Shown here piece after piece: positions 28,304 through 30,651 of a DNA stretch of 64,000 bases. Source of the DNA: Streptomyces sp. Je 1-332 (GTDB lineage: Bacteria; Actinomycetota; Actinomycetes; Streptomycetales; Streptomycetaceae); assembly GCF_040730185.1 (NCBI RefSeq), contig NZ_CP160402.1, positions 4,836,001 through 4,900,000 on the forward strand, in the 5' to 3' direction. Numbering within the stretch: position 1 is the stretch's first letter; each line of letters opens with the position of its first letter. Both the position numbers and the translations under genes were made by a program. The notes beneath the pieces were generated by a model. It was given only the letters and a program-made list of their open reading frames with translations, was not told where the DNA came from and searched no databases.

Positions 28304-28618
28304 TCAGACCCGGCCCCTGCACAGTTCGAGGAGCGTCATCGCGAGCGACGTACCCGGCTTGCCGAGCGCGTCCCTGTAGTGGGCGAGGACCTCCATCTCG
28401 CGCGAGAGGTTGACCCGACGACCGCCCGAACCGATGCGGGCGTCCTGGATGACGGCCGACACGGCCATCCGTTCCTGTACGAGACCGATGATGCGGTCGT
28501 CGAGTGCGTCGATGCGGTCACGTGCGCCTTCGATCACATCAGCGGCCTCGGGGGTGCGGGCGCCGGTCTTGTCGGTCTTACCGGCCGTGGCGGTGGTGGC
28601 GGTCGTGGCGATGGTCAT
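28304..28618 (-). CDS. Chorismate mutase, AroQ class
   Basis: 104 residues. After a 20-residue Thr/Ala-rich leader the three-helix AroQ pattern is visible: R-x2-I-D-A-L-D-D-R-I-I-G-L-V-Q-E-R (helix 1 with the substrate-binding Arg), A-V-I-Q-D-A-R, R-E-M-E-V-L-A-H-Y. It converts chorismate to prephenate, the branch-point reaction towards Phe and Tyr. Start: ATG 28618 with GAGGAG close upstream. About 180 bases upstream on the same strand lies a short open frame rich in Phe/Tyr codons followed by a terminator hairpin (see attenuator), indicating control by aromatic amino-acid supply. Convergent with nothing close; divergent from guaA. Confidence 0.9.
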   Translation of the reverse strand: MTIATTATTATAGKTDKTGARTPEAADVIEGARDRIDALDDRIIGLVQERMAVSAVIQDARIGSGGRRVNLSREMEVLAHYRDALGKPGTSLAMTLLELCRGRV

Positions 28619-28674
28619 GTGGGGCTCCTCGTCGGTGGAGTGCCCCGGAGCGACAAGGTCCGGAAATGACAGAA

Positions 28675-28701
28675 CGCCCCGGGCCTTGTCGGCCCGGGGC
28701 G
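28675..28701 (-). terminator. Attenuator terminator upstream of chorismate mutase
   Basis: On the minus strand CGCCCCGGGCC, loop GACAA, GGCCCGGGGCG, then TTCTGTCATTTCC. The 11-base perfect stem sits between the leader peptide stop (28726) and the structural gene start (28618), the position of an attenuator. Confidence 0.75.
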
Positions 28702-28725
28702 CCTGGGAAGTCGCTTGTCAGTGGA

Positions 28726-28797
28726 TCAAGCAGCTCGACCATGGCAGCCGGCGGGCCGGTTGCCATAGGTAAAGAGGAAGCTGAGGTGCTTGGTCAC
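28726..28797 (-). CDS. Candidate Phe/Tyr leader peptide of the chorismate mutase attenuator
   Basis: A 23-codon frame starting GTG at 28797 and stopping TGA at 28726-28728: V/M-T-K-H-L-S-F-L-F-T-Y-G-N-R-P-A-G-C-H-G-R-A-A. Codons 7, 9 and 11 are Phe (TTC), Phe (TTT) and Tyr (TAT); TTT and TAT are rare in this genome. An inverted repeat (28741-28766, ATGGCA...TGCCAT with CCGG/CCGG inside) begins exactly at the Tyr codon, so a ribosome stalled at the Phe/Tyr cluster would melt it. A promoter lies directly upstream and would give a leaderless leader mRNA. Too short for ordinary gene finding. Confidence 0.65.
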   Translation of the reverse strand: MTKHLSFLFTYGNRPAGCHGRAA

Positions 28798-28803
28798 GAG
28801 GCC

Positions 28804-28834
28804 AGTATGCCCCCACGCGCGCGTGCCCGGTCAA
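28804..28834 (-). promoter_or_regulatory. Promoter of the chorismate mutase leader
   Basis: On the minus strand TTGACC (28829-28834), 19 bases, CATACT (28804-28809), ending six bases before the GTG of the leader peptide. The -35 is nearly perfect; transcription would begin at or beside the GTG. Confidence 0.6.
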
Positions 28835-29067
28835 CACGGGTTCCGTGACGGCTCGGATACTGAGACGTCGAGCACCGCCACGTGCGCGGGAACGACCCCA
28901 GGGGGTCCTCAGCGAGCGGTCCCAGGGGCGGGACGGCCGCGGCTCCGTCGGATGCGACGAATGGGGTGCCCGTGAGCCCGTTAGAATCGACAAATACAGA
29001 CCCCCTGCTCACGCACGAGCCCCAGCTCATCGCTCAAGCTCACGCTCAACGCCGGAAGGCCGCCGCC

Positions 29068-30651
29068 GTGCCATCAGCGACCCCCGCTGCCGCCCCCGAC
29101 ACCGTTCTGGTCGTCGACTTCGGAGCGCAGTACGCCCAGCTCATCGCCCGCCGCGTCCGGGAGGCCCGCATCTACAGCGAGATCGTGCCGAGCAGCATGC
29201 CGGTCTCCGAGATGCTCGCCAAGAAGCCCGCCGCGATCGTCCTCTCCGGTGGCCCCTCGTCGGTGTACGCGGACGAGGCCCCGCGCCTGGACCGCGCGAT
29301 CTTCGAGGCCGGCGTCCCCGTCTTCGGCATGTGCTACGGCTTCCAGCTGATGGCGACCACCCTCGGCGGCACCGTCGACAACACGGGCGCGCGGGAGTAC
29401 GGCCGTACGCCGCTGGCCGTCTCCAAGCCCGGCTCGACGCTCTTCGAGGGCACCCCGTCCGAGCAGCCCGTGTGGATGTCGCACGGCGACGCGTGCAGCG
29501 CGGCGCCCGAGGGCTTCACCGTCACCGCGTCCACGGACGTCGTGCCGGTCGCGGCCTTCGAGAACGACGAGAAGAAGCTGTACGGCGTGCAGTACCACCC
29601 CGAGGTGATGCACTCCACGCACGGCCAGCAGGTGCTCGAGCACTTCCTCTACCGGGGCGCGGGCCTGAAGCCCGACTGGACCACCGGCAACATCGTCGAG
29701 GAGCAGCTCACCGCGATCCGTGAGCAGGTCGGCAACAAGCGCGCGATCTGCGGCCTGTCCGGCGGCGTCGACTCCGCCGTGGCCGCCGCCCTGGTGCAGA
29801 AGGCCATCGGTTCGCAGCTGACCTGCGTGTACGTCGACCACGGTCTGATGCGCAAGGGCGAGACCGAGCAGGTCGAGAAGGACTTCGTCGCGGCCACGGG
29901 CGTGCAGCTCAAGGTCGTCGACGCGCAGGAGCGCTTCCTCAGCGCCCTCGCCGGGGTCTCCGACCCCGAGGAGAAGCGGAAGATCATCGGTCGCGAGTTC
30001 ATCCGCGTCTTCGAGCAGGCCCAGGCGGAGATCGTCGCCGAGGCCCCGAACGACCAGCCCGTCGAGTTCCTCGTCCAGGGCACCCTCTACCCCGACGTCG
30101 TCGAGTCCGGCGGCGGCACCGGCACCGCGAACATCAAGTCCCACCACAACGTGGGCGGCCTCCCCGAGGACCTCGAGTTCCAGCTGATCGAGCCGCTGCG
30201 CCAGCTCTTCAAGGACGAGGTGCGCATGGTCGGCCAGGAGCTCGGCCTGCCGGACGAGATCGTCCAGCGCCAGCCCTTCCCCGGCCCCGGTCTCGGTATC
30301 CGCATCGTTGGTGACGTCACCAAGGAGCGCCTCGACCTGCTCCGTGAGGCCGACGCGATCGCCCGCGAGGAGCTGACGGCGGCCGGTCTCGACCGTGAGA
30401 TCTGGCAGTGCCCGGTCGTGCTGCTCGCGGACGTGCGCAGCGTGGGCGTGCAGGGCGACGGCCGGACGTACGGCCACCCGATCGTGCTGCGGCCCGTCTC
30501 CTCCGAGGACGCCATGACGGCCGACTGGACCCGCATGCCGTACGAGGTCCTCGCGAAGATCTCGACGCGCATCACGAACGAGGTCGCCGACGTCAACCGC
30601 GTCGTCCTCGACGTGACGAGCAAGCCGCCGGGCACCATCGAGTGGGAGTAG
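29068..30651 (+). CDS. guaA: GMP synthase (glutamine-hydrolysing)
   Basis: 527 residues, the normal GuaA length. N-terminal class I glutamine amidotransferase (about 10-205) with nucleophile C89 in F-G-M-C-Y-G-F-Q and Q-Y-H-P-E-V for the His/Glu pair; ATP-pyrophosphatase domain with [10 protein letters not shown] (P-loop); C-terminal dimerisation domain ending in I-E-W-E. It aminates XMP to GMP, the step after GuaB. Start: GTG 29068 with GGAAGG eight bases upstream; the longer open frame from 28882 has no ribosome site. It is divergent from the chorismate mutase leader and followed by a strong terminator. Confidence 0.97.

Follow-up and report, generated by a model that had tools for sequence, protein, structure and literature searches.

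A conserved Phe/Tyr leader precedes the chorismate mutase (CM) gene of Streptomyces sp. Je 1-332, and we consider it very probable (roughly 0.87), judging from comparison of sequences, that this element is a ribosome-mediated Phe/Tyr transcription attenuator of that gene. The switch would very likely let the CM gene be read only under Phe/Tyr shortage. The window, that is, the whole stretch of DNA analysed, is 64,000 nt long. The features of the region are collected in Table 1; the open reading frame, its codons, the hairpins and the conservation of all of these were established by sequence comparison.

Table 1. Features of the candidate attenuator and of the gene behind it, in positions of the window
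Feature	Position	Strand	Evidence
Promoter: -35-like TTGACC (28834-28829), 19-nt spacer, -10 CATACT (28809-28804)	28804..28834	minus	sequence
Leader ORF, 23 codons plus stop, apparently leaderless, peptide (V/M)TKHLSFLFTYGNRPAGCHGRAA	28726..28797	minus	sequence, conservation
Further leader Phe codon, TTC	28779-28777	minus	sequence
Control codons TTT-ACC-TAT (Phe-Thr-Tyr)	28765..28773	minus	codon conservation, codon rarity
Hairpin 1:2, ACC(U)AUGGCA.CCGG/CCGG.UGCCAUGGU	28738..28770	minus	folding, 116 loci
Antiterminator 2:3, CCCG..GGC.GCC.UGG with CCAGGCGCC.CGGG, inner GCUUG/CAAGC	28693..28755	minus	folding, covariation
Terminator hairpin 3:4, 13 pairs, GGCGCCCCGGGCC-gacaa-GGCCCGGGGCGTT, T-rich tail to about 28662	28673..28703	minus	scan, covariation
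Chorismate mutase, AroQ type, monofunctional, 104 residues	28304..28618	minus	PF01817, NCBIfam NF005894

The initial annotation of the window had proposed a promoter of the form TTGACC-N19-CATACT followed by a 23-codon leader with Phe-Leu-Phe-Thr-Tyr at codons 7-11. The promoter was located on the minus strand at 28834-28804, and the leader was present as claimed: its start codon is the GTG at 28797, 6 nt downstream of the -10 box, its stop lies at 28728-28726, and its peptide begins TKHLSFLFTYG after the start (F7-L8-F9-T10-Y11). A -10-like box of the form NATANT ended 6 or 7 nt upstream of the start codon of the leader at 115 of 116 Streptomyces loci, and a -35 match of at least 4/6 was found in 83/115 relatives versus 104/575 background positions, with a best -35/-10 spacer of 16-19 in the relatives. 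A strict promoter scan reported no promoter, because it allowed only spacers of 16-18 and the spacer here is 19. A -10-like box so close to the start codon suggests a leaderless transcript, which would begin at or adjacent to the leader start codon.

The gene had been named as a chorismate mutase, and the domain matches agree: PF01817 was above its cut-off, and NCBIfam NF005894 scored 126 bits (cut-off 73). Across the intergenic region from the CM gene lies guaA, which is divergent, on the plus strand. In the window the hairpin therefore does not end an upstream gene, and its reading as the terminator of such a gene was rejected there.

To sample the genus, 121 genomes were searched with the CM of the window, which was found in 119, one locus each; three loci (L013, L115 and L119) had too little upstream DNA and were dropped, leaving 116. 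The leader was present at all 116. One genome of the genus sample (G103) had neither leader nor CM, and in another (G114) the leader was retained at a contig end. Leaders were first spotted as short frames with clustered Phe/Tyr and then placed by an F-(T/S/I)-Y-G DNA pattern, which occurred at 116/116 loci versus 1/116 reverse complements and 0/116 shuffles. That F, Y and G do not vary at these places is partly owed to this pattern; codon choice was no part of it. A comparison across Streptomyces had been suggested as a check on the leader, and it showed a conserved frame whose rare codons are kept at the codon level, with TTT at the position of codon 9 in 115/116 loci and TAT at that of codon 11 in 115/116. 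The residue between them was Thr in 114 loci, Ser in 1 and Ile in 1. The earlier Phe was found in 104/116 loci, always as TTC, and was replaced by Tyr in 3 and by another residue in 9. The rarity of the two control codons also held: among 22 long frames with a G+C bias in the window, not all of which need be genes, TTT made up 3/237 Phe codons and TAT 27/248 Tyr codons. At seven loci (L006, L060, L073, L080, L081, L085 and L088) the rear of the leader was read in another frame while the RNA was kept (for example, RLPWSCC replaces GCHGRAA), and therefore selection appears to act on the control codons, not on the rear residues. By this comparison, the front of the leader is conserved as codons and its rear as RNA.

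Between the promoter and the CM gene, the RNA can form three mutually exclusive hairpins, 1:2, 2:3 and 3:4, and the folding of 28810-28640 beat all 200 shuffles (z -4.4). Covariation was counted on 49 representatives with 500 shuffles. The terminator hairpin was the sole terminator-like site reported by a scan of 28500-29200. It had a z below -1 in 116/116 loci, 99.2% of its cells were paired, and 10 double-side changes over 5 pairs were counted, a value reached in 0/500 shuffles. The initial annotation had described a GC-rich terminator with a T-rich tail; the hairpin stood, and the tail (CTGTCATTTC) proved weak, moderately T-rich at most. Directly after the terminator, at 28663-28645 on the minus strand, lies a small CCGG..CCGG hairpin, and a CCGG..CCGG pair within 60 nt past the terminator was observed in 81/116 relatives versus 8% of mononucleotide shuffles.

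An antiterminator formed by CGGCCCG and CGGGCCG had also been proposed. This is partly contained in the pairing that we found, which is longer and consists of CCCG/CGGG plus GGC-U-GCC-A-UGG with CCAGGCGCC. At least 10 antiterminator pairs were present in the best fold of segments 2 and 3 in 116/116 loci. Its z was below -1 in just 58% of the 116 loci (median -1.1), a weak advantage over shuffles; in the 49 representatives 88.0% of its cells were paired and 7 pairs had double-side changes, with 0/500 shuffles as high. Two of its pairs failed in about half of the 49 sequences, and controls in which the antiterminator was slid gave 2-5 pairs, one of them with 8 double-side cells versus 7. Hairpin 1:2 starts with the codon following the second Phe and includes the inverted repeat at 28766-28741, which was present as claimed. 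Its z was below -1 in 96% of the 116 loci (dinucleotide shuffles); in the 49 representatives it gave no covariation signal, with 89.5% of cells paired and two pairs unpaired in about half. The stems expected to covary thus did so clearly for the terminator, moderately for the antiterminator and not for stem 1:2. With frame and codons conserved, the terminator covarying, the antiterminator covarying moderately and the gene being a CM gene, the attenuator reading of the initial annotation is supported.

From these features we infer termination, ribosome stalling and the sensing of both Phe and Tyr. Transcription would begin at or next to the leader start codon, and the ribosome would trail RNA polymerase. 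When charged Phe- and Tyr-tRNA are ample, the ribosome would reach the stop codon and mask segment 2, so that no antiterminator would form, segment 3 would pair with segment 4, and transcription would end. When Phe or Tyr is scarce, the ribosome would stall at TTC, TTT or TAT and mask segment 1, leaving segment 2 free to seize the 5' arm of the terminator, and the CM gene would be transcribed.

This mechanism was modelled by setting the ribosomal A site on a given codon, leaving only the RNA beyond the ribosome free, and folding it at equilibrium. A reach of 16 nt was used for the ribosome. Capture was counted as at least 5 antiterminator pairs; a count of all pairs made by the terminator arm was not informative, since local pairing of that arm adds to it. 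When the A site stood anywhere from codon -2 to codon +3 relative to TTT, the antiterminator formed in 116/116 loci; the count fell to 108/116 at +5 and to 10 at +6, and no locus formed it from +9 onward. Counted more strictly, with segment 2 alone, it formed in 116/116 at the three Phe/Tyr codons; the stop codon and positions +6 and +9 all gave 0. Positions -6 to -3 likewise permitted the antiterminator, in 112-113 of 116 loci, and therefore the control codons are bounded by the model downstream but not upstream; the idea that only Phe0 and Tyr are permissive stall positions was rejected by this A-site scan. On the downstream side, the modelled arrangement is that of a classical attenuator. 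Without a ribosome, the antiterminator beat stem 1:2 at equilibrium in the window and in 54/116 loci, so that termination without translation would need 1:2 to win kinetically.

We then searched for the leader in the family Streptomycetaceae with a covariance model (R1). The genome of the window contained one full-length copy; the other 11 matches were partial or covered that locus on the other strand, and were rejected as further copies. Full-length matches with E < 1e-6 were obtained in at least 77/101 family genomes and at least 16/17 genera, Streptomyces included. In 20 leader loci from 13 other genera, CM was located 142-324 nt downstream in 20/20, and the Phe/Tyr motif was complete in 19/20, with Gln for Tyr in the remaining one (L202). 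CM also followed in 12/12 further loci from other genera (L145-L156). Among the matches listed, 25 family genomes were without a full-length leader; 21 of these had no match to the CM of the window at E 0.001, and the other 4 had weak matches to it (27, 28, 41 and 46% identity). The leader and this CM were both missing from genomes of the family genus g14, from G103 and from G478. Five leader-negative genomes carried another CM_2 gene, and for the best such gene in each no aromatic short frame lay within 500 nt upstream of the domain match. One family genome had a second, weak full-length match (L188), which precedes neither CM nor DAHP synthase.

Beyond the family, R1 matched 51 of 296 genomes of the class among the matches listed, 24 of them outside Streptomycetaceae. 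Four of the 24 precede CM (families f31, f35 and f37), with the leader motifs AFFFYG, RFFYG, YFYYG and RFFYYG, and 16 precede DAHP synthase (f17 and f28), with leaders such as MQRNFWRFYGYRP; two of these enzymes were confirmed by PF00793 and the rest were identified by likeness. The remaining four were L187, with neither gene, and L167 and two terminator-only matches, which were not included in the gene assignments. A pattern derived from the DAHP-synthase leaders found 57 stretches in named genomes, 54 of them before DAHP synthase, in Nocardiopsis, Streptomonospora, Thermobifida and relatives; L232, with no DAHP synthase in the DNA examined, was left out of the 54. All 54 leaders contain Trp. 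Two Mycobacterium matches to the pattern (L240 and L251) were rejected as chance, being in other frames. The DAHP-synthase loci L169-L185, L210-L266 and L283-L307 showed a GC-rich terminator and an aromatic leader, in which codons for Phe, Trp and Tyr usually occur. With the modelled ribosome set directly on the Tyr codon, the antiterminator was permitted in 11/16 of the DAHP-synthase versions.

A second model, R2, was built from the 16 DAHP-synthase leaders and run on 394 genomes of the class. Of the 31 loci read, 25 stood before DAHP synthase, 3 before CM, 2 had a Thr-rich short frame, and 1 (L308) had neither gene. The two Thr-rich loci (L312 and L313) contain the short frames MQRAQMTTTPEVSRRAD and MQRAFVTTTPESPPAR, with three consecutive Thr, and the long frame downstream resembles threonyl-tRNA synthetase by eye; a leader thrL is reported from S. 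lividans (PMC8079986). R2 also matched Streptomyces leaders, which were outside its build, with E values of 8.9e-14 (G095) and 2.8e-7 (the genome of the window), a result that favours common descent of the CM and DAHP-synthase leaders. Trp was found in the DAHP-synthase leaders of 36/39 distinct genomes (both models) and was absent from L180, L303 and L305. Between the start and the Tyr codon, Trp occurred in 3/116 CM leaders of the genus (L113, L114 and L116) and in 0/24 CM leaders from elsewhere; some CM leaders have Trp after the Tyr, within the genus where the rear is frame-shifted and, in several other genera, in the loop. By sequence, the leader amino acids thus appear to match the end products served by the enzyme, with Phe/Tyr before CM and mostly Trp in addition before DAHP synthase. 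This contrast also follows taxa and is therefore not an independent test. It may be, at about even odds, that an ancestral actinobacterial aromatic RNA switch was passed between pathway steps and that the amino acids sensed were rewritten with the enzyme, with CM (Phe, Tyr) in Streptomycetaceae and some other families and DAHP synthase (Phe, Trp, Tyr) in Nocardiopsis and relatives.

Other explanations of the conserved leader were considered. An F-x-F-T-Y-G nascent chain might arrest the ribosome upon a small molecule and use the same hairpins. Within the genus the peptide F-T-Y-G indeed hardly varies, but across families the motif differs in its aromatic residues and their spacing (FFFYG, YFYYG, NFSYG, FWRFYG), Trp mostly joins the motif when the enzyme serves Trp as well, and rare codons are kept beyond mere residues; we therefore hold peptide arrest to be very unlikely. 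The conserved leader might instead work on translation or via Rho, without intrinsic termination, which would be in keeping with the weak T tail and with S. lividans leaders noted as being without typical terminators (PMC8079986). Against it stand the strong covarying terminator hairpin in 116/116 loci and the T-richer tails of many DAHP-synthase leaders, and in the window 54 nt separate the hairpin from the start of the CM gene, whose Shine-Dalgarno-like GAGGAG lies outside the hairpin. This reading is slightly more improbable again.

The most disfavoured reading, to which we give hardly any weight, is that an ordinary 5' UTR hairpin is accompanied by a chance ORF, or that the frame encodes a small protein with a separate function. 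Short ORFs that have three F/Y within 7 residues were found in 109/117 CM upstream regions of at least 250 nt, compared with 0/117 reverse complements and 1/117 shuffles, which argues against this reading, as does the change of frame in the rear half at seven loci. A riboswitch or T-box was rejected, as no Rfam family matched in the region: a search of the whole window with Rfam 15 returned nothing above the gathering threshold there, and the 9 sub-threshold matches in the region were all to unrelated RNA types. The sole Rfam 15 match above threshold in the window was a c-di-AMP riboswitch (RF00379, 78 bits) at 55849-55693 on the minus strand.

Attenuation by Phe/Tyr codons, as proposed here for the CM gene, would be a mechanism of a known kind. 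CM as the gene, the conservation throughout the family and the DAHP-synthase relatives were not found in the literature searched. No report of a Streptomyces CM leader was found in this literature, part of it available as excerpts, and a prediction in Lopatovskaya 2010 is possible. The results supply a family-wide leader ahead of the branch-point gene for Phe and Tyr. Many natural products draw on this branch point. The contrast between CM and DAHP-synthase leaders, in turn, offers a test case for control codons that track the place of the enzyme in the pathway.

Leaders with amino-acid ORFs, mostly leaderless, and hairpins have been described for trpE, trpS, leuS, thrS and other Streptomyces genes (PMC8079986, PMC1262725). 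As far as these descriptions go, they share the plan of leader ORF and hairpin with the CM leader and differ in amino acids and genes. Table 4 of the S. lividans study gives 8 leaders, and none in that table is for Phe/Tyr or chorismate mutase (PMC8079986). A comparative study from 2005, in its account of Actinobacteria, has Phe/Tyr operons without conserved upstream RNA structure (PMC1262725). The same source states that S. coelicolor ilvB was unaffected when codons of its leader were changed (PMC1262725), so that a textbook layout need not function as such.

In Corynebacterium glutamicum, the aroR leader (Phe-Tyr-Phe) precedes aroF, and Phe limitation is said to raise transcription (PMC11802643, PMC4046766). 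Compared by description only, aroR is likewise an actinobacterial aromatic leader peptide, with Phe-Tyr-Phe, but it controls the DAHP synthase gene aroF, not CM. In Escherichia coli, the Phe leader peptide pheL is described as controlling pheA, which encodes CM-PDT (PMC11802643), and the two systems are alike, on that description, in that a leader peptide with Phe governs a gene for chorismate mutase activity. The Streptomyces version differs in that the enzyme is a monofunctional AroQ, that the leader is apparently leaderless and matches no Rfam family at gathering score, and that its Tyr codon is as constant as its Phe codon.
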